Part shown: positions 26,250-41,015 of the stretch, piece after piece
How positions within the stretch are numbered: position 1 is the first letter of the stretch
Layout: every line of letters starts with the position of its first letter
From: Delphinus delphis
Taxonomy: Eukaryota > Chordata > Mammalia > Artiodactyla > Delphinidae
Reading direction: 5' to 3'
Assembly (NCBI RefSeq): GCF_949987515.2
Contig: NW_027192673.1
Coordinates: forward strand, 1,421,001-1,485,000
Length of the DNA stretch: 64,000 bases
Notes under the pieces: model-generated
Seen by the model: only the letters and a program-made list of their open reading frames with translations
Databases searched by the model: none
What the model was told of the DNA's origin: nothing
Translations under genes and position numbers: made by a program

Positions 26250-27827
26250 TTGGCCAAAAAGGGCGTATGCGTTTTTTCCTGAATATATTCAGGAAAAAAC
26301 GCATACGCCCTTTTTGGCCAACCAAGCAAGCTTGCAAAGGAAATCTGCACTACAATGAAGTCTCACTTCCCCCCGGTCAAAAGGGCCATCTGAAAAAAGT
26401 GTAAAATCCAGAAAGGCAACAGGCCATGGAGAACTGGGAGCCTTGTTATGCTGATGGGCGGGATGTAAATTGCCAACAGACACTCGGGAGAAGTGTATGG
26501 TGTTTCCTGAAACATCTAAAAAACAAAGCAACAGAGCCTAGGGCACTGCCACTTATGGTCCTATAGCTTAGGGAAATTAAAATCAAAAAGACACAGCCAC
26601 CCCAAAGTTTGGGACGCCTCCGTTTACAAGAACCTCGTTTACCGTACAAGTTCAATATCACAGAAAGTGAAAAATGGATAAAGAACTTGTGGTACTTACA
26701 TACAATGCAGTATCACTCAGTAATGAAATCTATGTCATCAGGCCCGTAGCAGCATAATGAGTGGATTCAGGTACGATGATTCTAACTGAAATAAGTCACA
26801 CAGAAAAAGAAACATCATAAGATATCACTAATACACGGAATGTTAACTTGGCTACACAGGAACTGCATTCCAAAACAGAACAGGGTCTCAAATTTAGAAA
26901 ACCAACTTATGCTTGCTTAAGGGTAAAGGTGAGTTGGGGTGCTGCATAAAACCAGAGATTGAAATGAGCACAGATAAAGTTCCTTAAGCCAAATATGGAA
27001 TAGACAAGAGCTACTCCTTGCTCAACGAAATGGACTCAACACCCCATATTAAACGCCTAAGCATGTACCTGACTAGTAAGTATCTTAAAACCTATGGATT
27101 GCTATGTCTCCAAAAGAGAATCAAGCGTGTGTACAGGGGCATAAACGCAGCAGTGATAGGATTGGAGAGGTTCGGTGAGCAAATGAAGACCCTTTGAAGT
27201 CATATTGCATGGTACCCATTACACGGGTTTCAACTACCCAGGTTTAAGGTATTCTTCCTTCAGCTAAAACATGCATGTGGAACCCAGAGTATGATCAACC
27301 ATGTGATCGGGAGACGTGTTCAAATATGTCTCAGTTTTCGTACCCTGGTACTCGGGTGCAATATTCCAGACGCTTTACTAACACTCTCCCGACTTGGATA
27401 GTCAGTCCCTTTAACCTCCTGTTTGGCCCAGTTTGCAATTTCTGCGGAAGATGAACAGGAATAGCGAGAACCAATGAGAGACTAGCTGGAGGTGTCTGGA
27501 CGGGCAAATTTAACTCTCATTTCCCACCAGGAAGAGGAATTAACCAAAGGCTCAGGGTGCCCTGCCGGAACCAGATTAGGGCCTGAAGCCATCCTGCGGT
27601 GTTGCGGCCAGCTCACAAGAAAGCGAGTTGAAGAAAGGAGCTCAGGGGCACTGTAATTCACAAACCTGCAGAGTTATAAATGACAGCAATCGTCCAAAAA
27701 TAGACTGAAGTAAGGCTGCCAAGAGGACTTGAAAGCAGGGCACAATTGCAGGAAACCGATTTCAGGAGGTAGACTGGAATTGCACTGAAAGCATAGGAAA
27801 AGAGGCCTAAGGTCCACAATGATGCAC
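26250..27827 (+). repeat. Satellite monomer 17 (1,578 bp, type B)
   Basis: Perfect palindrome. The 12,630-bp duplication ends in its first 170 bases, then a tract of about 1.05 kb matches monomer 11 instead, then the sequence diverges again at about 27,462. Confidence 0.9.
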
Positions 27828-27899
27828 TTGGCCAAAAAGGGCATATGCGTTTTTTCCTGAATATATTCAGGAAAAAACGCATACGCCCTTTTTGGAAAA
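27828..27899. repeat. Palindrome variant, mismatches in both arms
   Basis: Left arm has GGGCATATGCG, and the right end reads TTTTTGGAAAACC, so the outer base pairs are lost. Confidence 0.9.
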
Positions 27900-29406
27900 C
27901 CAAGCAAGCTTGCAAAGGAAATCTGCACTACAATGAAGTCTCACTTCCCCCCGGTCAAAAGGGCCATCTGAAAAAAGTGTAAAATCCAGAAAGGCAGGAC
28001 AGGCCATGGAGAACTGGGAGCCTTGTTATGCTGATGGGCGGGATGTAAATTGCCAACAACCACTCGGGAGAAGTGTATGGTGTTTCCTGAAACATCTAAA
28101 AAACAAAGCAACAGAGCCTAGGTCACTTCCACTTATGGTCCTATAGCTTAGGGAAATTAAAATCAAAAAGACACAGCCACCCCAAAGTTTGGAACGGCTC
28201 TGTTTACAAGAACCTCGTTTACAGTACAAGTTCAACATCGCAGAAAGTGAAAAATGGATAAAGAAGTTGTGGTATTCACTTACAAAGCAATATCACTCAG
28301 CAATGAAATCTGTGTCATCAGGCCCTTAGCAGCACAATGAGTGGATTCAGGTATGATGATTCTAACTGAAATAAGTCACACAGAAAAAGAAACATCATAA
28401 GATATCAGTAATACACGGAATGGAAACTTGGCTACACAGGAACTGAATTACAGAACAGAACAGGGTCTCAAATTTAGAAAACCAACTTATGCTTGCTTAA
28501 GGGTAAAGGTGAGTTGGGGTGCTGCATAAAAGCAGAGATTGAAATGAGCACAGATAAACTTCCTTAAGCCAAATATGGAATAGACAAGAGCTACTCCTTG
28601 CTCAACGAAATGGACTCAACACCGCATATTAAACGCCTAAGAATGTACCTGACTAGTAAGTATCTTAAAACCTATGGATTGCTATGTCTCCAAAAGAGAA
28701 TCAAGCATGTGTACAGGGGCATAAACGCAGCAGTGATAGGATTGGAGAGGTTCGGTGAGCAAATGAAGACCCTTTGAAGTCATATTGCATGGTACCCATT
28801 CCACGGGTTTCAACTACCCAGATTTTAGGTATTCTTCCTTCAGCTAAAACATGCATGTGGAACCCAAGTATGATCAACCATGTGAACGGGAGACGTGTTC
28901 AAATATGTCTCAGTTTTCGTACCCTGGTACTCGGGTGCAACATTCCAGACGCTTTACTAACACTCTCCCCACTTGGAGAGTCAGCGCCTTTAACCTCCTG
29001 TTTGGCCCAGTTTGCAATTTCTGCGGAAGATGAACAGGAATAGCGAGAACCAATGAGAGGCTAGCTGGAGGTGTCTGGACGGGCAAATTTAACTCTCATT
29101 TCCCACCAGGAAGAGGAAATAACCAAAGGCTCAGTGTGCCGTGCCGGAACCAGATTAGGGCCTGAAGCCATCCTGCGGTGTTGCGGCCAGCTCAAAACAA
29201 AGCGAGTTGAAGAAAGGAGCTCAGGGGCACTGTAATTCACAAACCTGCAGAGTTATAAATGACAGCTATCGTCCAAAAATAGACTGAAGTAAGGCTTCCA
29301 AGAGGACTTGAAAGCGGGGCAGAATTGCAGGATACCGATTTCAGGAGGTAGACTGGAATTGCATTGAAAGCGTAGGAAAAGAGGCAGAACGTCCACAATG
29401 ATGCAC
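27828..29406 (+). repeat. Satellite monomer 18 (1,579 bp, type A)
   Basis: The palindrome is altered in both arms: GGGCATATGCG on the left, and TTTTTGGAAAACC on the right, where other copies read TTTTTGGCCAACC. The 170 bases before it carry more substitutions than inner units, consistent with proximity to the array edge. Confidence 0.88.
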
Positions 29407-29477
29407 TTTGCCAAAAGGGCATATGCGTTTATTCCTGAATATATTCAGGAAAAAACGCATACGCCCTTTTTGGCCAA
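29407..29477. repeat. Degraded palindrome at the array edge
   Basis: 71 bp. Left arm begins TTTGCCAAAAGGGCATATG and contains GTTTATTCC. The right arm is intact, so the hairpin has a deletion and several mismatches. Confidence 0.88.
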
Positions 29478-30196
29478 CCAAGCAAGCTTGCAAAGGAAAT
29501 CTGCACTACAATGAAGTCTCACTTCCCCCCGGTCAAAAGGGCCATCAGAATAAAGTGTAAAATCCAGAAAGGCAGGACAGGCCATGGAGAACTGGGAGCC
29601 TTGTTATGCTGATGGGCGGGATGTAAATTGCCAACAGACTCTTGGGAGAAGTGTATGGTGTTTCCTGAAACATCTAAAAAACAAAGCAACAGAGCCTAGG
29701 GCACTTCCACTTATGGTCCTATAGCTTAGGGAAATTAATATCAAAAAGACACAGCAACCCCAAAATTTGGGACGGCTCTTTTTACAGGAATCACTTCTAT
29801 GGCACAAGTTAAATATCCCAGAGAGCAAATAATGGATAAAGAAGTTGCGGTACTTCTGTACAACAGAATACCACTCAGCAATGAAATCTATGTCACCAGG
29901 CCCGTACTAGCATAATGAGTGGATTGAGGCACGATGATTCTAAGTGAAATAAGTCACACAGAAAAAGAAACATCATAAGGTATCACTAATACACGGAATG
30001 TGAACTTGGCTACACATGAACTGAATTACAAAACAGAACAGGGTCTCAAGTTTAGAAAACCAACTTATGCCTGCTTAAGGGGGAAGGTAAGTTGGGGTGC
30101 TGCATAAAAGCAGAGTTTGAAATTAGCACAGATACCGTTCCATAAGCCAAATATGTAATAGACAAGAGCTACCCCTTGCTCAACGAAATGGATTCA
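29407..30196 (+). repeat. Satellite monomer 19 (truncated edge copy)
   Basis: Only about 790 bp. The palindrome is 71 bp with several mismatches. After about 29,750 it diverges clearly from the interior consensus, and several variants lean toward the L1 or B state, for example GTACAACAGAATACC near 29,867. It stops inside the L1 3' UTR-derived part where a separate L1 3' end begins. Confidence 0.85.
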
Positions 30197-30950
30197 ACAA
30201 TGAGGTATCACCTCACACCTGGTAGAATAGGCATCATTGAAAATCTACAAACAAAAAATGCTGGAAAGGGTGTGGAGAAAAGGAACCCTCTTCCACTATT
30301 GTTGGGAATATAAATTGATACAGTCATTATGGAGAACAATATGGAATTTCTTAAGAAACTAACAATAGAATTACCATATGATACAGCAATCCCAGTACTG
30401 GACATATACCCAGACAAAACCATAAATCAAAAAGAGTCATTCACCGCAATGTTCATTGCATCACTATTTACAATATCGAGGTAATGGAAGCAACCTAAAT
30501 GCCCACAGACAGACGAATGCATAAAGCTGTGGTACATATATAAAATGGAATATTACTAAGCCATGAAAAGGAATGAAATTGGGTCATTTGTGGAGACGTC
30601 GATGGATCTAGAGACTGTCATACAGAGTGAAGTAAGTCAGAAAGAGAAAAACAAATCTTGTATATTCATGCATATATGTGGAACCTAGAAAAACTGTACA
30701 GATTAACCATTTTGCAAGGCATAAATAGAGCAACAGATGTAGACAACAAACGTATGGACAACAAGGGGGGAAAGCTGTTGGGGGGGTGGTGGTGGGAGGA
30801 GTTGAGAGACTGGGATTGGCATGTATACATTTATATGTATAAAATAGATAACCAATAAGAACCTGCTGTATAAAAATATAAAATAAAATTCAAAATTAAA
30901 AAGAAGTAAAATTTAAAAAATAAAACAGAAAAAACAATTATTCCCTGCAC
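30197..30950 (+). mobile_element. LINE-1 3' end, 5'-truncated
   Basis: Clear L1 3' end on the + strand. It starts at the ORF2 stretch reading TGAGGTATCACCTCAC and includes TGGAATATTACTAAGCCATG (30,547) and GTGAAGTAAGTCAGAAAGAG (30,628), then a G-rich 3' UTR tract (30,761-30,800) and an A-rich end. Several in-frame stops show the ORF2 relic is dead. It lies in the same orientation as the satellite and joins it at the ACAATGAG stretch, a point homologous to the satellite's own L1-derived start. It could be a 5'-truncated insertion or a recombination junction. I could not find a convincing target-site duplication. Confidence 0.85.
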
Positions 30951-31090
30951 ATACATGTATTTATATGAATAAATTATTTCCATGCTTATATCTGTAAATA
31001 CAAAAAAGAGGAATAAAATCTACCTTGAACCAAAAACGAAAAAGAGAAAAAAAACACAGAACCCACCAGTTACACAGAGGAAAACCGTAT
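30860..31090. other. A-rich tract after the L1 3' end
   Basis: Strongly A/T-biased with repeated AATAAA-like words and runs of A. The first part is probably the L1 tail. The remainder may be a second decayed retroposon tail; I see no gene in it. Confidence 0.5.
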
Positions 31091-32500
31091 CAGGGCACTT
31101 GCTCCAGTTGTAAACAATTCTGAAGTTGGTCAGTGGTGGGGAATCGTCTCCCATTCAGCCAGCAGCCCCCACGCAACAAGCGTCCTCATTGCAAAGCTGG
31201 GGCACCGTGCCGAGGCATCTGTGAGTAAACGTGAGCTGAGCCCCAGGCCAGTTGCTGCTGAACTATTCCCACCCGTCCCAGGTAAAACACCTGAATATAT
31301 ACAAGGACTTGAAAGCCTAGAGGAAGGGCCATAGAGCCACACGAGTGACAGCATGCCGGCCGACTTGGTGCCTGCAGGCCAGCCAGGATGGTCCTGGCCC
31401 TGGGTGCTCTTCTGGAAGATTTCCATTTCCCTGCCTGAGATACCCGTCCTGTCCCTGCCCCCACTGCTTTTTTCCTTCCTCACCTCTGCCCAGGGAGAAA
31501 TTCCAGCAGCAGGTATGGGTGACACATCCTCTTCTTTAGCAGGTGGCAGCCTGGCAACTGCTGCAGAAAGTCCAGCAGAGCCCCACTCACACTGGGCCAC
31601 CCACAAAGCCGTGGCCTCTCACTCCCTCCCACCAGCCCAGCCCCGAGACTGCTGACAGGGCAGAGAAAATGGCGTCAGGCGCGGCTGCAGGGGCTCTTGC
31701 TGCCTGGAGTGGTATTTATATTGATCTCAACCCAGGCACACCTGGGGAGGGCTGGCCGGCACGGTAAGGCTGCCCAGGTCAGCCAATCATCACCCCTCAG
31801 GGGCTCACAGTTGCAGAAAATGGAACTTGCTGAACCGGCCAGGTCCAAGGAACAGGTGTGGGCTCCTGAGAGTCAGGATAGACAAGGGGCTGCAGCTTTG
31901 GCTTGTTTTCTAATCATTTTATCTGGCCCATGAGTGGGAGACAACTTCAAGAAAACCCTCTCCTAATGAGAGGAACCCAGGAGTCAGGGAGAGGAGGGGT
32001 GGGTGGTGGTTGGAGACAGAGGCCTGGTGCCCCGGGTGCAGTGGAAGTCTCTGGAAGACCAGGTGGAGGGAGGCCTCACGGAGTGATGCCCAGGGTCACA
32101 GACCTGTCGCAGCTGCTGTTTGTTAGTTCAAGTCCTGCTCTGAGGTGCTCTGTGTCAGCTCTGAGCGACAGGTGAGCTGGGGGTGCTCTGCAATGAGGGC
32201 TATGTGCACGGTTCCTGTGTGCCCAGCCCTGCCACGGTACCTGCAAGGGTAGCTCTGTATCCTGGGAGGGGCCTGACCACGAGAGCCCCGTGGGCTGGGG
32301 TGGGGGTGGGGTACCTGCCCAGGTGAGCTCCATATTCTGGGATTGGTCTGACCACGAGAGCCCCATGGGCTGCTGGGGACCTGGTAAAGGATGTCAGGAC
32401 AGTCAGTGAAGCCACCGAGGATATACCTCCAGTTGCTCCTAATTCCTACACCCTGCTGGTCATTCTACCAACCACCAGGACATGGTATTCTGTATTAGTC
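31090..32500. other. GC-rich unrecognised spacer
   Basis: This stretch is much richer in G and C than its surroundings and has no satellite or L1 similarity I can see. Open frames occur on both strands (for example 31,130-31,606 on the minus strand) but are Pro/Ser/Gly-rich and match no family I recognise; GC-rich DNA yields such frames by chance. It could be internal sequence of the neighbouring endogenous retrovirus or single-copy DNA. Nothing here supports a functional call. Confidence 0.5.
32237..32386. repeat. Imperfect 75-bp tandem duplication
   Basis: Two copies begin with GTACCTGC at 32,237 and 32,311, and each contains GACCACGAGAGCCCC (32,275 and 32,350). The spacing is 74-75 bp, with about a dozen differences and a G-rich run between the copies. 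Confidence 0.7.
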
Positions 32501-32539
32501 TTCAATGATGCCTTCTTTTGTATTCCATTAGTCCCAGAG

Positions 32540-33400
32540 TCACAAGAAATTTTGGCTTGTGAGTGGCAGGACTCAACATACAACTAAAACAATACTTCCG
32601 GGCCGTCTGGCCCCAAGGGTGCAAAAATTCCCACACCATCTTTGGGGAAAGCTTAGCTAAAGACCTAAAAGTTCTACCTCTGGAAAAGGAAACCCTCCTT
32701 CTATGCAGACGACATTCTGATCACCAGCCCTACTAAGGAGGCCTCTGAACTACCAAGCCAATAAAGGATAGAAGTTGTCCAAGAAAAAGCTCAAATATCA
32801 CAGACTGCGGTGACCTGCCTGGGCTTCATTCTCACAGAAGGTCAGAGAAGCCCATCCCAGGAAAGGGAAGAAACCATTTTCAGCCTTACCCCTTTCTAAA
32901 ACTAGAAGACAGCTTAGGGGTTCCTGGGGAGGCCAGGGTTTGCTGCTTCTGGATCCCTAACTACAGTCTACTAGCTGGGCCTCTATATGAAACACTGAAA
33001 GGAAAAGATGATGATCCTTTTGAATAGAATCCAGAAGTGGCCTTTCAAGAATGGAAAGAGCAGTCAATTCAGACCCTTGCCCTGGAACTCCCTAATTTAG
33101 CTAAACCCTTTGACCTTTACATTCCCGGTGAAAGGTGAATCGCCATTGGAGAATTAGTGCAAAAACTGGGACCACTTGAAATGGAACAATGCAAGAATGC
33201 CATCCAGGTAGGATAAACTACGGTCACTAAGGGGCTTGGCCCACTGCCACATCTGGCCAAGATACTGGCGGTATCTAAAAACCTGGAAATCAGCAGCCCA
33301 AAAGGCCACCTCCCTCCTAAGGGAAAAGGACCCCACGTGGTGATCCTAACCACCAACCATGCCCTGAAGTTGCAGGGTTCGCTCCGTGGGCACACCGACC
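32540..33400 (+). pseudogene. Class I endogenous retrovirus pol relic
   Basis: Translated + strand frames resemble reverse transcriptase of gammaretrovirus-like (class I) endogenous elements. The YADD catalytic box lies at about 32,703-32,714, with further RT-thumb and connection-like similarity to about 33,200. The reading frame shifts several times, and in-frame stops occur, for example near 33,026 and 33,136, so it cannot encode an enzyme. Similarity fades after about 33,400, and gag and env are not recognisable. The family assignment rests on motif recognition without alignment. Confidence 0.65.
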
Positions 33401-33950
33401 TCGAGTGAGGAGGCCCTCCAACTCCAACATCCAGAGAGATAACCGGGGGCAACAGGGCACCATGACGACTCGTGTGAACATCACTTGACCTGGAGTTTCT
33501 CTCATAAACAACAAGAGTGTGTCCCAAAAGAGTAGACTACTGCTTGCAGGACTTACTGCACCCAGAGGGGAGCTAATAATCTTGGCGGGGGAACAGTATA
33601 CCACACTGTCACCATAGAAAAGCCTACAGACACCGTGATGATGGTGGCCAATAAGACCGGCTGGACTCCTGTTTACTTCAAAAGGCTGTTGACTCAGTAG
33701 CCATCATGGTCCTTGGTCACCACTGACCCTGGACTGTCTGGGAGTTGAGCGGGCAGGGCTCTGACACCTGGTGCTGTTTGTACGTTAATTCAGGGGCCTA
33801 ACTGAAGAAAGCGCAGACTACTGGTCAGAGCATCTAGGCTGGCAGAGACGGTCAGCCTAAGGTGGCCGAACAAATGTGGGGCGGGGTGAAACCGGCCCCC
33901 ACAGCGTCTCTGCACATCTCTTTCCTGGACCCTTAAAGGTCATTAGAATC
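33400..33950. other. Probable decayed retroviral interior
   Basis: Lies between the pol relic and the LTR-like segment. Frames are fragmentary and I recognise no domain. By position it would be the 3' pol/env region of the same element, but no env hallmark is visible. Confidence 0.3.
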
Positions 33951-34640
33951 TATAACACTTCCAATGCTGGTGCTCAGGTGGACGAGCAGGGAGGCAGGGG
34001 TCCTGGGGACAATCAACGTCACCGGGAGGCTGCTGGGGAGAAGCTCTGACCCTCGCCCCAGGGTATGAGGGCTCCCAACTCAGCACTCAGCAGTTACAGA
34101 AGAAGGGTCTGCACCCTCAGCACTCCAAGAATGAGGAACGGGACAAAAGGCAGAGGAGGGGTTTGTCCCCAGCAAAGCCCATTAAAAATCCCTGGGAGAT
34201 AAAAATAGAATCTGGGCAATAAAGTCAAGTCTAACCTTTTTTATCCTTTGTGCTTTGTCTAATTTCACGTGCTCCTAGGGTCCCGCATGCAGAGGTTCCA
34301 CACCCGGCACTTCAGACCAGATTTCCTAGTGCAGAATGGCTGGGTCGACACCTCAGCTCCTGGGGCCCAGTGCAGACTCCACGATATAGAGCCTGAGCTA
34401 CAGCCAACCCGGCCCTCGAGAGCTCCGCCGCCTCCCTCCCTCCCACTGACTCTGACAGGATCTCTACACAGCAGCCCAGCCCACAGCCCACGGGGTAGTG
34501 CATGCTCTCACCTCTCCATTCTCTGATCAAAATATAAAGTTTCCTTTGCTTGTGAACCAAACTCAGTCTCGATCTGTTGGCCCCAATGACACTGGGCAGG
34601 GGGACACTTGTTGGGGTCCACTCTGGAGGATCAGTAACAG
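33950..34640 (+). mobile_element. LTR-like segment of the retroviral relic
   Basis: Contains an AATAAA signal near 34,219 and a segment at about 34,530-34,637 with the feel of class I LTR R/U5 sequence: AAAGTTTCCTTTGCTTGTG, then TTGGGGTCCACTCTGGAGGA, ending near AACA. Its place downstream of pol suits a 3' LTR. I could not identify a matching 5' LTR or the precise ends. Confidence 0.4.
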
Positions 34641-34967
34641 AAATTGAGACTATTGTAACCTCAATGAACAGATGTGTGAGCCAAACTGTAGTTAACATAG
34701 AACAGTGTATAAGGCTCGGGTAAAATAAGATGTTTTTAACACTTCCATTTGATATTTCCATCACTTTTTATAAGCAAGTTCAGTGAAAAGGTTTGTCTTA
34801 TTTGTCAGGTCAATATTAGAGAAACGAAGTGATTTCTTTCCAAGGATGTACATCTAATAATCTTGGTTAAACCTTCAATCTTGTTTTAAATGCTTTTCCA
34901 TTGAAAATGATACCTCTCTTTCAGCTCCCCCATTTCTGAGAAGTATAAAATCTTATAATTTATTATT
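34640..34967. other. AT-rich unrecognised spacer
   Basis: No open frame, satellite similarity or mobile element was recognised between the LTR-like segment and the first L1 3' UTR-like sequence. Confidence 0.4.
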
Positions 34968-35947
34968 ACCAAAGGGGAAAGGTGGGAGGAGGGATAAATT
35001 AACAGTTTGGAATTAACACATACACACTGCTATGTATAAAATAGATCATCAACAAGGAACTACTGTATAGCACAGGGAACTACACTCAACATTTTGCAAT
35101 AAGCTATAAGGGGAAATAATCTGAAAAAGAATAGATATTTTTATTGACATCATCTATCAATGACAGTTAAAGTGTAGCCTAAGGGAAGCTGGTGGTGAGT
35201 GCTTCTGACCCTGAAGACTTCAATCATCTAAAGTTTGGACTCTGCCTACTTCCCAAGGCCCTTAATGAACATATGTGTAGCTGTAGCTTAAAAAATTCCC
35301 CAGTTTGGGTTTCGGGGAGACACTGATTTTGAAAAAGCCCTGGTGTTCTCCTTACATGAATGGGACTCTTCCTACTGCTAAAACATGTCTGTCACACCCA
35401 GAGGATGGTATACCGTCTGATCGGGAAGAGTTTGGAAAAGGCATCTCATCTCCTCATCTCCTGGTGCTCGGGTTCACCCCTCCAGCGTCTTTACTAACAG
35501 TCTCCCCACTTGGAGATGTCAGCACTGTCAACATCCTGTTGCGTACAGTTTGGAATTTGTCCAGAGGATGAAGTGGAAGGATGAGGAACAATGAGAGACA
35601 AGTCCTAGGTGTTCAGACAGGCACATGTCACTCTAATTTCCAATCAGGAAGACGAATTGACCAAAGGCTAGGGTTGCCCATGGAAACAGTATAGGGCTTG
35701 AGGAAATCCCGCTGCTTTGTGGCCAGTTCCCATAAACACGAGTTGAACAATGGAACTCAGGGGCAGTAAAATTCACAAAACTGCAGAGTTGAAAATATCC
35801 ATCACTGAAAAATGTCTTGAGGAAAGTCAGAGAAAAGGACTTGTAAGCAAGGGAGAATGGCAGGAAAGGGATTTGAGGAGGTAGAAAGGACTCGCCATTA
35901 AGCACAAGAAAAGGAGCTGAACATTGCCAACATTGCCAACATTGCAG
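34968..35947 (+). repeat. Satellite edge copy D0 (partial, highly divergent)
   Basis: Positions 34,968-35,140 read as a recognisable L1 3' UTR (CAAGGAACTACTGTATAGCA at about 35,054, then CTGAAAAAGAAT). They sit about 1.65 kb before the equivalent place in D1, so they are in phase with the array. After about 150 bp with no clear match, satellite sequence is recognisable from about 35,300 (GCTAAAACATG at 35,378; CTCCCCACTTGGAGA at 35,502). Divergence from the interior consensus is far higher than for any unit of the homogenised arrays. Confidence 0.75.
35921..35947. repeat. 9-bp triplet repeat beside the D1 palindrome
   Basis: ACATTGCCA twice, then ACATTGCAG, directly before the left arm. Other units have a single related sequence there, so this is a local expansion. 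Confidence 0.85.
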
Positions 35948-36017
35948 TTGGCCAAAAAGGGTGTATGCGTTCTTTTCTGTATATATTCAAGAAAAGGGCA
36001 TACACTTTTTTAGCCAA
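35948..36017. repeat. Divergent palindrome of D1 (70 bp)
   Basis: Left arm GGGTGTATGC pairs with GCATACAC in the right arm, so the C-to-T change relative to the consensus is matched by a complementary change. Other positions (GTTCTTTTCTG; AAGAAAAGGGC) are mismatched. Confidence 0.85.
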
Positions 36018-36853
36018 CCAAACAGGTGGGCACTGGAAGTCAATACTACAAAAGATATCACTTCGCATCAGTCAGAAGAGCCATCCTCATAAAGCGTAAA
36101 CAACAGAAATGCAGGACAGGGCAACGAGAAGAGGGAGCCCTGTGAGACTTATAGTGGAAATGTATATTGCCAACGGCCATTCTGGAGAAGTGTATTGTGT
36201 TTACTAAAGCATCTAAAAAATGAGCTACAGAGCATAGGGCACTTGCACTCATGGGCGTATATCTTGGGAAAAACAAAAATCGAGAGGACACAGGCACCCC
36301 AATGTTTACCCCCTCTCTGTTTAAAAGATCCTCGACTAGGATATAACTTAAATGTCTCTGGAGGGAAAAAATGGATAGAGATGTGGTACTTAGGTAGAGT
36401 GGAATATTATTCAGCCTGGAAATCAATGAAATATGGCCAGTTGTAACAACTCCGGAGGAGTTACGTATGATCATTCTAAGTGACAGAATTCAAAAAGAAA
36501 AAGACACATATCATAAGATATCACTTAAAGGTGGAATCCAAAATGGCTACACATGAAATAAATTACAAAACAAAAACATAGTCAAATATGTAGAAAACAC
36601 GCATAAGGCTGCTAAACGGGAAAGGTGGGGAGGGGTGAGGCATCATCCAGGAGGTTGAAATTAGCAAAGATACCATTCCAAATACCAAACTGATAATCAA
36701 CAAGGCCTACACGGTAGCTAAAAGAACTGCACTCAGCACACTCAAGTCACCGGAAAAGAATATATACGACTGGTAAGAATCTGAAAAAGAATTTATTGAT
36801 GTCTCTCTGTACGTGAATCAAGTGGATGTACAGCAGCAAGAAACAGAGCTTTG

Positions 36854-37018
36854 AAAATCAGCTGTAACCAATATAGTAATAAATTGAAAAAAATAAACGA
36901 CAGAGAGACAGAGAAAACCTCTTACAACTTTTCCTCAGGGACGGTGATGCAACATGGATTGAACACATCTAGACCCACAGCAGGATGAGACATAAGGCTG
37001 GAAACTGTTTGCGCTAAG
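36854..37018 (+). repeat. Extra ~165-bp segment in D1, absent from short units
   Basis: Aligns by eye with 38,601-38,768 in D2; shared words include GTGATGCAAC and AGACATAAGGCTGGA. No counterpart exists in any 1.58-kb unit. Confidence 0.8.
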
Positions 37019-37687
37019 AGAAATGTGAGGTTGGGTGAGGAAATGCACACCCTTTAAAGTAATACTACCTGGTACCCATTCAATGGGTCCCAAATCTGCA
37101 GGTTCAAGGGATCTTCCTACAGCTAAAACATGCATGGAAAACCCAGAGGACTGTACACCATGTGATCGGGAGATGTGTCTAAAATGCACCTCATTTATCC
37201 TCTCCTGGTGCTCCTGTTCACCATTCCAGCCACGCTACTTAGAATCTCCCCACTTGGAGAATCAGCACATTTAAACTTCTGTTTCACACATTTTGCAAAT
37301 TGTGAGGAGGATGAACGGGAAGAGGGGGAACCAATGAGAGAAGAGTTGTAGGGGTTTGGACGGGCACATATCACTCTAATTTCCCATTAAGAATAAGAAT
37401 TAAAGAAAGGCTCAGCCTGCCTCGCCGGAGCCAAAATAGGGCCTGAAGCAATCCTGCGGGTTTGAGGCCAGCTCACAAAAGAGCAACTTAAAAAATGGAG
37501 CTCAGGGTCACTGCAATTCACAAACCTGCAGAGTTATAAATGAAAACTAACGTCCAAAAATATGTTGAGGTAAGGCAAAGAAGAGGATCTGAATGCAAGA
37601 CAGAATTGCAAGAAACAGATTTCAAGAGATAGATTGGACTCGTCTTTAACGCACATGAAAAGCGGCAGAATTTCGACAATGATGCAG

Positions 37688-37759
37688 TTGGCCCAAAAGG
37701 GCGTATGCGTTTTTTCCTGATTATATCCAGGAAAAAACGCATACGCACTTTATGGGCAA
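37688..37759. repeat. Divergent palindrome of D2 (72 bp)
   Basis: Core GGGCGTATGCGTTTTTTCC and its complement are intact. The centre reads TGATTATATCC and the ends TTGGCCCAAAAG and ACTTTATGGGCAA; the outer GGCCC/GGGC changes partly compensate each other. Confidence 0.87.
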
Positions 37760-38600
37760 CGAAGCAAGCAAGCAATGCAAATGTGCACAACAAAGAAGTC
37801 TCACTTCCCACCGGTCAAAAGGGCCATCCTAAAAAATTGTAAAAACCAGAAATGCAGGACAGGCCATGGAGAACAGGGAGCCTTTATACGCTGATGGGCA
37901 GTGTGTGAACTGCCGAGAGCCACTCTGGAGAAGTGTATGGTGGTTCCTAAATCATCTAAAAAACAGAGCTACAGAGCATAGGACACTTCCAATCATGGGA
38001 GTATATCTAGGGAAGTCTAAAAATCAACAAGACACAAGCACACCACAGTTTAGGGCTACTCTGTTTACAAGAACCTCAACTTCAGTACACCTTAAATATC
38101 CCAGGAAAGAGAACAATGGATAAAGAAGATGTGGTACTTATGTACAATGGAATATCTCTTCACCATGAAATCAATGTAATAAGGCTAGTAGAAGGATAAA
38201 GAGTGGATTTAGGTCCGATAATACTACTTGAAATAAGTCAAACAGAAAAAGAAACATATCATAAGATATCACTTATAGAGGGAGGGTAAATATGGCTGCA
38301 CAAGAAATGAATTACAGAACAGAACAGTGTCTCACATTTAGAAAACACACTTATGTCAGCTTAAGGGGAAAGGAGAGGTGGGGTGATGCATAAAACCAGA
38401 GTTTGAAATTAGCACAGATACCGTTCAATAAACCAAATAGGTATTAGACAAGATCTACACCTTGCTCAATGAACAGGCCTCAACACACCCTATACACCGC
38501 AGAGAAATATATCTGAGGAATAAGAATCTTAAAACCCATGTATTGATATATCTCCATAAGGGAATCAAGTGTGTGCAGAGCGGCACAAACACAGCAGTGA

Positions 38601-38768
38601 AAAGGAGCTAAACCCCATTATAGAAATAAATTTTAAAAACAAAACGCTGAAACAATGAAAGAGAGAAAAATTCTTACAAAATTCGCTCAGGGGCTGTGAT
38701 GCAACCTGGATTGACCACATATAAACCCACAGCTGGATAAGACATAAGGCTGGACACTTGGGGCTGAC
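38601..38768 (+). repeat. Extra 168-bp segment in D2 (deleted in short units)
   Basis: Flanked by ACAGCAGTGA (ends 38,600) and AGGATTGG (starts 38,769). In short units the same flanks are joined as GCAGTGATAGGATTGG, for example at about 41,918-41,933. Its first third is A-rich, consistent with the L1 poly(A) end; the rest is not recognised. Confidence 0.85.
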
Positions 38769-39437
38769 AGGATTGGTGAGCTTTGGTGAGCAACTGCCAA
38801 AAGTTTAATGCAATACTTCATGCTACTCATTCCAAGGGTCCCAACACTCCAGGTTGAAGGGAATCTTCCTACAGCTAAACCATGCTTGGGAAACCCAGCG
38901 ACTGGTATACCATATGATCGGGAAAGGTTTCTAAAACGCACCTCATTTTTCCTCTCCTGGGGCTCCGGATCGACATTCCAGCCGCTTTACTAACAACATC
39001 CCCACATGGAGTCAATGCCTTTAAGTTCTGGTATCGCACAGTCTGCAGTTAGTGCAGAGGATGATTGGGAATAGGGGGAACCAGTGAGAAACTAGCTGTA
39101 GCGGTTTCAATGGGCACATGTCACTCTAATATCACATCAGTAAGAAGAATTAACCAAAGGCACAGCAAGGTGCCCCAGAAGAAAAATAGGGCTTCAAGGA
39201 ATCCTGTGGTTATGGGGCAAGACCACAAAAATAAGAGCTAAAAAATGGAGCTAAGGGCCACTGCAATTCAAAAACCTGCAGAGTTATAGAGGCCAACTAT
39301 TTTTAAAAAATATATTGAGGTAAGGCTATGAAGAGGCATTGAAAGCAAGGCAGAATTGCAGGAAACCGATTTCAGGAGGTAGACTGGAATTGCATTGAAA
39401 GCATATGAAGAGAGTCAGAAACTCGACAATGATGCAC

Positions 39438-41015
39438 TTGGCCAAAAAGGGCGTATGCGTTTTTTCCTGAATATATTCAGGAAAAAACGCATACGCCCTT
39501 TTTGGCCAACCAAGCAACCTTGCAAAGGAAATCTGCACTACAATGAAGTCTCACTTCCCCCCGGTCAAAAGGGCCATCTGAAAAAAGTGTAAAATCCATA
39601 AAGGCACGACAGGCCATGGAGAACTGGGAGCCTTCTTATGCTGATGGGCGGGATGTAAATTGCCAACAGCCACTCTGGAGAAGTGTATGGTGTTTCCTGA
39701 AACATCTAAAAAACAAAGCAACAGAGCCTAGGGCACTTCCACTTATGGTCCTATAGCTTAGGGAAATTAAAATCAAAAAGACAAAGCCACCCCAAAGTTT
39801 GGGACGGCTCTGTTTACAAGAACCTCGTTTATGGTACAAGTTCAATATCACAGAAAGTGAAAAATGGATAAAGAACTTGTGGTACTTACGTACAATGCAA
39901 TATCACTCAGCAATGAAATCTATGTAATCAGGCCCGTAGCAGCATAATGAGTGGATTCAGGTATGATGATTCGAACTGAAATAAGTCACACAGAAAAGAA
40001 ACATCATAAGGTATCATTAATACACAGAATGTCGACTTGGCTACACATGAACTGAATTACAAAACAGAACAGTGTCTCAAGTTTAGAAAATCAACTTATG
40101 CTTGCTTAAGGGGGAAGGTGAGTTGGGGTGCTGCATAAAACCAGAGATTGAAATGAGCACAGATAAAGTTCCTTAAGCCAAATATGGAATAGACAAGAGC
40201 TACTCCTTGCTCAACGAAATGGACTCAACACCCCATATTAAACGCCTAAGAATGTACCTGACTTGTAAGTATCTTAAAACCTATGTATTGCTATGTCTCC
40301 AAAAGAGAATCAAGCGTGTGTACAGGGGCATAAACGCAGCAGTGATAGGATTGGAGAGGTTCGGTGAGCAAATGAAGACCCTTTGAAGTCATATTGCATG
40401 GTACCCATTCCACGGGTTTCAACTACCCAGGTTTAAGGTATTCTTCCTTCAGCTAAAACATGCATGTGGAACCCAGAGTATGATCATCCGTGTGAACGGG
40501 AGACGTGTTCAAATATGTCTCAGTTTTCTTCGCCTGGTACTCGGGTGCAACATTCCAGACGCTTTACTAACACTCTCCCGACTTGGAGAGTCAGCGCCTT
40601 TAACCTCCTGTTTGGCCCAGTTTGCAATTTCTGCGGAAGATGAACAGGAATAGCGAGAACCAATGAGAGACTAGCTGGAGGTGTCTGGACGGGCAAATTT
40701 AACTCTCATTTCCCACCAGGAAGAGGAAATAACCAAAGGCTCAGCGTGCCGTGCCGGAACCAGATTAGGGCCTGAAGCCATCCTGCGGTGTTGCGTCCAG
40801 CTCACAAGAAAGCGAGTTGAAGAAAGAGCTCAGGGGCACTGTAATTCACAAACCTGCAGAGTTATAAATGACAGCTATCGTCCAAAAATATACTGAAGTA
40901 AGGCTGCCAAGAGGACTTGAATGCGGGGCAGAATTGCAGGAAACCGATTTCAGGAGGTAGACTGGAATTGCATTGAAAGCATAGGAAAAGAGGCAGAACG
41001 TCCACAATGATGCAC
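39438..41015 (+). repeat. Satellite monomer 22 (1,578 bp, type B)
   Basis: First short unit after the divergent edge, with a perfect palindrome. It is slightly more divergent than interior copies (TTTATGGTACAAG near 39,828; GTCGACTTGG near 40,031) and already lacks the 168-bp segment. Confidence 0.9.

Follow-up and report, generated by a model that had tools for sequence, protein, structure and literature searches.

Layered long and short units of an L1-derived satellite around an island in a contig of Delphinus delphis

The DNA described here is a stretch of 64,000 nucleotides of Delphinus delphis (assembly GCF_949987515.2, contig NW_027192673.1, positions 1,421,001 to 1,485,000 of the forward strand), termed the window, in which units of two lengths of one tandem satellite lie side by side. 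Two arrays built of one unit and oriented alike, at 1-30,199 and 39,438-64,000, flank an island at 30,200-39,437 and extend beyond the window, the left array to the left and the right array to the right. Each unit opens with a 72-bp palindrome. All 33 full short units measure 1,578-1,580 bp from palindrome to palindrome, and their identity to the short consensus is 97.0-98.9%. Palindrome starts at 35,948, 37,688 and 39,438 delimit two longer units within the island, D1 of 1,740 bp and D2 of 1,750 bp, which are 75.0% identical to each other and 74.3% (D1) and 79.2% (D2) identical to the short consensus. A partial unit in front of them, D0, is about equally or more diverged (73% to D1, 72% to the consensus, 71% to D2). 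The coordinates are summarized in Table 1.

The length difference between the long and short forms is essentially one segment of ~165 bp in the unit alignment. The same gap is present in every full short unit and forms a single junction, which reads AGCAG^TGATAGGATTGG; since D2 has TGA at either breakpoint, the exact position can be read in more than one way. An earlier sequence-only reading of this DNA had reported two units of 1,740 and 1,750 bp against 1,578-1,580 bp elsewhere and had ascribed the difference to one segment. Both statements are borne out, the former by 33 of 33 other full units, the latter by aligned segments of 163 bp (D1) and 167 bp (D2) with limits within 2-4 bp of those it gave. 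The D1 and D2 segments are 79% alike over 144 bp (E 2e-32), which excludes chance likeness. D0 starts 3' of the segment position, so that its long or short form is not readable. The exact 16-base junction occurs in 41 of the 51 short units of the window and of contig C6 of the same assembly (2.66 billion bases, 630 contigs), and the remaining 10 short units, which all lie on C6, have a substitution inside the junction. Eight further 10-kb stretches contain short units and lack the segment. The term edge units, applied earlier to D1 and D2, is apt only towards the 5.1-kb non-satellite stretch; on the far side an array of the same family and orientation follows.

Table 1. Features of the window and of the related locus on C6 (window positions unless a contig is named).
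Feature	Position	Strand	Remarks
Left array, short units	1-30,199	+	18 full units 987-29,405; partial, more diverged unit at 29,406-30,199
L1 copy (3' part), left border of non-satellite stretch	30,200-30,890	+	served as in-window outgroup
Non-satellite stretch of island	30,891-35,344	.	includes L1 piece ~34,955-35,140
D0, partial diverged unit	~35,345-35,947	+	71-73% to D1/D2/consensus
D1, long unit, 1,740 bp	35,948-37,687	+	K2P 0.31 to short consensus
D1 extra segment, 163 bp	36,852-37,014	+	start aligns with L1 3' terminus and A-rich tail
D2, long unit, 1,750 bp, mosaic	37,688-39,437	+	K2P 0.24 to short consensus
D2 extra segment, 167 bp	38,598-38,764	+	TGA at both breakpoints
Right array, short units	39,438-64,000	+	15 full units 39,438-63,130
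R01, first right-array unit	39,438-41,015	+	slightly diverged, 97.0% to consensus
First deletion junction right of D2, in R01	40,338-40,354	+	breakpoint ~40,342/40,343
72-bp perfect palindrome opening units (example)	39,438-39,509	.	palindrome of R01
E1, long unit, 1,744 bp	C6:115,276,319-115,278,062	locus reversed relative to window	segment kept
E2, long unit, 1,744 bp	C6:115,274,575-115,276,318	locus reversed relative to window	segment kept
C01, first short unit behind E2	C6:115,272,996-115,274,574 (locus L038)	reverse	E2/short hybrid

K2P, Kimura two-parameter distance.

The unit is homologous to the 3' portion of L1. The L1 copy bordering the non-satellite stretch on the left scores 434 against D1, 380 against D2 and 334 against the short consensus; its local matches to D1 and D2 are 65-80%, and it is 85% like a separate L1 on C6. 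The latter has a complete 3' end and aligns to positions 824-936 of D1, in which the segment starts at 905, with a score of 72, where the maximum of 300 shuffles is 48 and the short unit R05 scores 26. A further L1 end gives scores of 80 against a shuffled 46 for D1, 66 against 45 for D2, 54 against 42 for E1 (a long unit on C6) and 34 against 41 for the short consensus. As aligned, the L1 terminus and its A-rich tail continue into the segment, clearly in D1 and marginally in D2, and the short form reads as the unit minus its L1 end.

A sister locus was located on C6 by 18 probes of 500 bases, one of which (115,280,001) is D1 at 99.4%; 45 kb around it were taken, reversed and then aligned to the window. 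The C6 locus is 97.6% identical to window 27,496-40,339 over 12,852 bp, and the alignment ends at 40,339, the junction in R01, because E1 still has the segment. The order on C6 is a short array with a diverged last unit, the island, D0-D1-D2-E1-E2 and then short units, 18 of them full, as far as the 45 kb reach. E1 and E2 have identical segments, 74% like that of D2; measured by parts, the two units are 92-94% identical to the short consensus, and in the DNA tree they adjoin the short units. In the window E1 and E2 are absent, and D2 abuts short units. C01, the short unit that follows E2, hardly differs from E2 over its initial ~700 bp but is closer to the short type thereafter, a hybrid that points to exchange between long and short units at the front. 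From these comparisons, the latest long stage found is that on C6, placed between the old long units of the window and the short units. The earlier expectation that one window would hold the states before and after the deletion needs correction: an old long form and the short form are present in the window, and the intermediate stage was seen on C6.

Further members of the satellite came from searches of protein collections with three queries, which yielded 36 external open reading frames (ORFs) of this satellite, P0002-P0037; P0001, the window's own ORF, was dropped. The test for the segment covered P0002-P0023 (n = 22), with P0024-P0037 outside it. Fifteen of the 22 have the segment, with at least 8 residues in it and a score above all 400 shuffles of the segment (the weakest, P0006, scores 33 against a shuffled 30), and the other seven have fewer than 8 residues there. 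All 15 score higher on a long unit than on the short consensus. Counterparts of the segment, which the sequence-only reading had proposed to look for in other cetaceans, do exist among public ORFs, although these ORFs are not tied to named cetaceans. An ORF of the short junction was not recognised among the public ORFs, no test having been aimed at that junction. P0011 has the segment, yet is nearest to the near-short units: its residue matches are 122/175 with the short consensus, 94/182 with D1, 88/182 with D2 and 126/180 with E1. P0015 and P0032 contain stretches that we take to be derived from sequencing adaptors, which suggests that some of the contigs behind these ORFs are artefacts. Searches of viral contigs, genome contigs and plasmids gave no matches to cetacean or L1 sequence, apart from a single 17-base match in a viral contig with no palindrome around it, and a related-locus search with P0002 likewise returned no matches.

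The trees with these ORFs are built on translated non-coding DNA, with off-frame rows masked by eye and 11 of the 33 short units standing for all. P0015 and P0020, which look chimeric and were also omitted from the ORF comparison with E1 and E2, were kept outside the trees, as were P0018, P0019 and P0021-P0023, whose frame does not align. In the 43-row tree the short units and P0014, P0017 and P0025 form one group (support 100/97) with a sister group of P0011, P0016, P0024, P0026 and P0033 (97/87); the two groups together have support of 100/100, and D1 and D2 fall outside. The protein tree places E1 and E2 within the short-unit group (100/97) and all near-short rows in one clade (100/100) without D1 and D2. 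The trees thus place the branching of D1 and D2 before the ancestor common to the short units, E1, E2 and P0011, and a nesting of D1 and D2 inside the short units, raised earlier as a check, is not observed. Rooting with the L1 outgroup orders the layers further. In the 5' half of the unit, 40 sites join D2 with the short units, 4 join D1 with the short units and 9 join D1 with D2; the tree supports D2 with the short units at 100/99, and the alternatives have p values of 0.0015-0.0016 in the approximately unbiased test (p-AU). Over the whole unit with an L1 root, the outer units branch below the inner ones.

Because L1 homology crosses the breakpoint and long units (P0011 among the public ORFs, E1 and E2 on C6) bracket the short clade, the long form is supported as ancestral and the short form as derived from it by one deletion, which agrees with the polarity proposed from the window alone. 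The tree, with long units in its deep branches and the short form in one group, is a stronger argument for this polarity than the L1 continuity. With a probability of about 0.8, we read the locus as the layered remains of an L1-derived satellite, in which short units surround a fossil island (30,200-39,437) with two units of ancestral length, and a late long stage is kept on C6.

Several observations weigh against this reading. The C6 L1 scores 47 against both D2 and E1, where the shuffle maxima are 46 and 47, at the edge of chance. The L1 tail by itself is marginal: around the segment, 5 and 14 of 300 shuffles are as good, and in the whole of D1 and D2, 36 and 16 of 300. The 3' half of the unit gives no clear branching order for D1, D2 and the short units. 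D2 is moreover a mosaic: its 5' part groups with the short units, unlike its 3' part, and its final ~80 bp share 92% identity with the array (the two halves of the unit differ significantly, chi-square p 5e-8). The order of release is accordingly established for the 5' half alone. In the ORF tree, neither a clade of D1 and D2 nor one of D1 with all near-short rows can be rejected (p-AU 0.33 and 0.31). The sample of 15 ORFs is biased, as two of the three protein queries contained the segment, and nothing follows from it on the frequency of the long form. Finally, E1 and E2, and with them the order D2-E1-E2, were found at one place only, on C6, and we infer their loss from the lineage of the window as opposed to a later arrival in C6.

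The island is present elsewhere in the assembly. Of 38 probes, the 18 on C6 and 20 more, 27 fell in satellite or island sequence, 10 were without a match and one matched L1 only. Island or D units were hit by four of the 27, on C6, at C49:1,300,001 (99.8%), at C24:1,500,001 (99.6%) and at C30:500,001 (100%), a proportion that gives no estimate of abundance, since the probes were placed by hand. Altogether five copies of the island with D1 and D2 were found, two on C49 and one each on C6, C24 and C30. In those at C49:1.30 Mb, C24 and C30, D2 is followed directly by short units, and 500-base probes of the non-satellite part on C49 and C24 differ from the window by 0.2-0.4%. Between the window and C6, D1 differs by 0.4%, much like the other copies; D2 differs by 1.5% (18 of 26 differences in the array-side third) and the non-satellite part by 1.3%. 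These larger differences mark the C6 copy as the outlying one. On this evidence, one copy lineage without E1 and E2 appears to have spread, and the best reading is that the island with D1 and D2 is no single relic, the fossil edge itself having been amplified. It is conceivable, with the balance tipped slightly to the other side, that the fossil edge, whose units would predate the deletion and perhaps also the living cetacean families, has become a dispersed composite repeat: a block of ~9 kb copied through heterochromatin and carrying a readable stratigraphy (D0-D1-D2, in one outlying copy also E1-E2) of a lineage-defining deletion. A genome search with the unit gave at least 208 matches, often partial ones, on numerous contigs, with 40 of 4,916 candidates scored and contigs not tied to chromosomes.

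Among other explanations, the one that survives best is that D1 and D2 come from an old satellite family of their own, which a rearrangement brought next to the short array, and are no decayed edge. The jump in identity from 79% to 97% within one unit of the window would fit this, as would the copying of the island as a block. The unit register, however, runs unbroken from D1 through D2 into R01, and C6 has the intermediates E1 and E2 as well as C01, which joins E2-type and short-type sequence; we therefore regard a separate family as unlikely. It is much less probable still that D1 and D2 have come down directly from the pool that underwent the deletion, so that the window alone would show the states before and after. 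D1 and D2 are indeed long, adjoin short units and fall outside the short clade. Their K2P distances from the short consensus are, however, 0.313 and 0.243, against 0.071 for E1 and 0.083 for E2 on C6, which are ~3-4 times closer. Moreover, a grouping of the short units, P0014, P0017, P0025, D1 and D2 without the P0011 group is rejected (p-AU 7e-6; with D2 alone 0.003). The view of D1 and D2 as the state just before the deletion is not supported, and the two units are much older strata.

An ancestral short form, with the segment as an insertion that spread through the long units, would suit the abundance of the short form in the DNA sampled, where 80 junction-spanning alignments stand against four long units, all on C6. 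We consider it barely credible, given that the L1 3' end runs on into the segment in D1 and that long units occur in every deep branch seen (D1, D2, public ORFs, P0011, E1 and E2), the short form in one group. An assembly artefact is the least probable of all: satellite arrays are hard to assemble and contig C6 ends in one, but D0-D1-D2 stands at five places on four contigs, with D1 and D2 at C49:1.30 Mb, C24 and C30 99.3-99.8% like those of the window.

Under the preferred reading of layered remains, a founder unit of ~1.75 kb combined an L1 3' end, including its terminus and A-rich tail, with flanking DNA and the 72-bp palindrome, as the homology shows most clearly in D1. Units at the border of the non-satellite stretch would then have ceased to exchange with the main array, D1 earlier than D2 as judged from the 5' half, and would have diverged, perhaps because exchange is weak where arrays end. 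A single deletion of ~165 bp in the main pool, possibly between the short TGA repeats, would have produced the 1.58-kb unit, for which a single junction is observed. Unequal exchange and conversion may have let the short unit displace the long one, while C6 kept E1 and E2 between D2 and the short array, in the order observed there. Another copy of the island would have lost E1 and E2, so that D2 came to abut short units, and would have multiplied to at least four places, the window included; the places are observed, and the sequence of events is a probable one. All ages in this scheme are relative, not absolute.

The palindrome has only 5 differences across the 33 short units, against ~47 expected from the rest of the unit; unit positions ~82-161, just after it, are equally quiet with 4 differences. 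In E1 and E2 it is only 93-96% like the consensus. The palindrome is well kept in 10 distant public ORFs, and in P0027 17 of 17 palindrome codons are kept versus 84 of 132 elsewhere. It may resemble a mariner-type inverted-repeat element.

We also note some features of the arrays and the island. The left array has a higher-order pattern, in which L05-L08 reappear as L13-L16 (8-unit period, 1-4 differences each), and L03 does not differ from L04; near-identical units of the right array stand two apart (R04/R06, R08/R10/R12, R09/R11). The left array closes with a partial unit, 91.4% identical to the consensus, which stops abruptly at the L1 copy. In the island, the stretch 31,000-34,999 has almost no repeated 14-mers, ~32,600-34,620 bears a by-eye likeness to a decayed retroviral-type element with a terminal repeat, and a 9-bp motif occurs 2.9 times at 35,920-35,945, just 5' of the D1 palindrome. 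The L1 piece at ~34,955-35,140 was considered as the L1 part of D0 and dropped, as by eye it looks far nearer to ordinary L1 than the units do. An Rfam scan of the window at gathering thresholds gave no match, and a CENP-B-like core pattern was not found in the window.

The satellite is most likely the common cetacean satellite of a delphinid, as indicated by its L1 likeness and unit length. This satellite, reportedly the highly repetitive DNA component of Arnason and co-workers, has a unit of about 1.58 kb in delphinids and about 1.75 kb in other cetaceans; the lengths of 1,578-1,580 bp and of 1,740, 1,744 and 1,750 bp fit these reference lengths. PMC9659126 likens the common cetacean satellite to the 3'-terminal portion of L1, and L1 is given as its source in PMC8909793 and PMC6947457. 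The L1 matches in the window and on C6 agree with a unit from the 3' part of L1, and the likeness is that of a tandem unit built on L1. The open-access literature searched contained no mention of both unit lengths inside one genome. The takeover of a satellite by a variant is usually inferred afterwards from comparisons of species; here unit lengths mark the layers, and the change from long to short can be traced along one DNA stretch, with the hybrid unit C01 at the front. The timing of the 1.58-kb form relative to the delphinid radiation becomes testable. Relic units can multiply as passengers of a larger segment, and an old form inside an array therefore need not mark an old position.

In the human centromere, alpha satellite has older, diverged units outside and homogeneous ones inside, with sharp steps between them, as described in PMC9859433. 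The dolphin units are similar in that identity falls outward (short units 97-99%, E1 and E2 92-94%, D2 79%, D1 74%, D0 72%) and in that outer units branch below inner ones in the 5' half and in the whole unit with an L1 root. They differ in that an insertion-deletion difference (indel) marks the layers besides sequence, the unit derives from L1 and measures 1.6-1.75 kb, and copying has taken the fossil edge itself to several places inside arrays. By analogy, we infer that edge units escape homogenisation while a deletion variant takes over inside. PMC9859433 also describes for human DYZ3 a deletion variant, 36-mer to 34-mer, from an ancestral longer form, and to that extent the short unit is comparable, being a deletion variant derived from a longer form. 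In contrast, DYZ3 loses whole monomers of a higher-order repeat within a population, whereas here part of the basic unit is lost between deep layers. The indel as a layer marker and the copying of a fossil edge through the arrays are, as far as we have seen, new.

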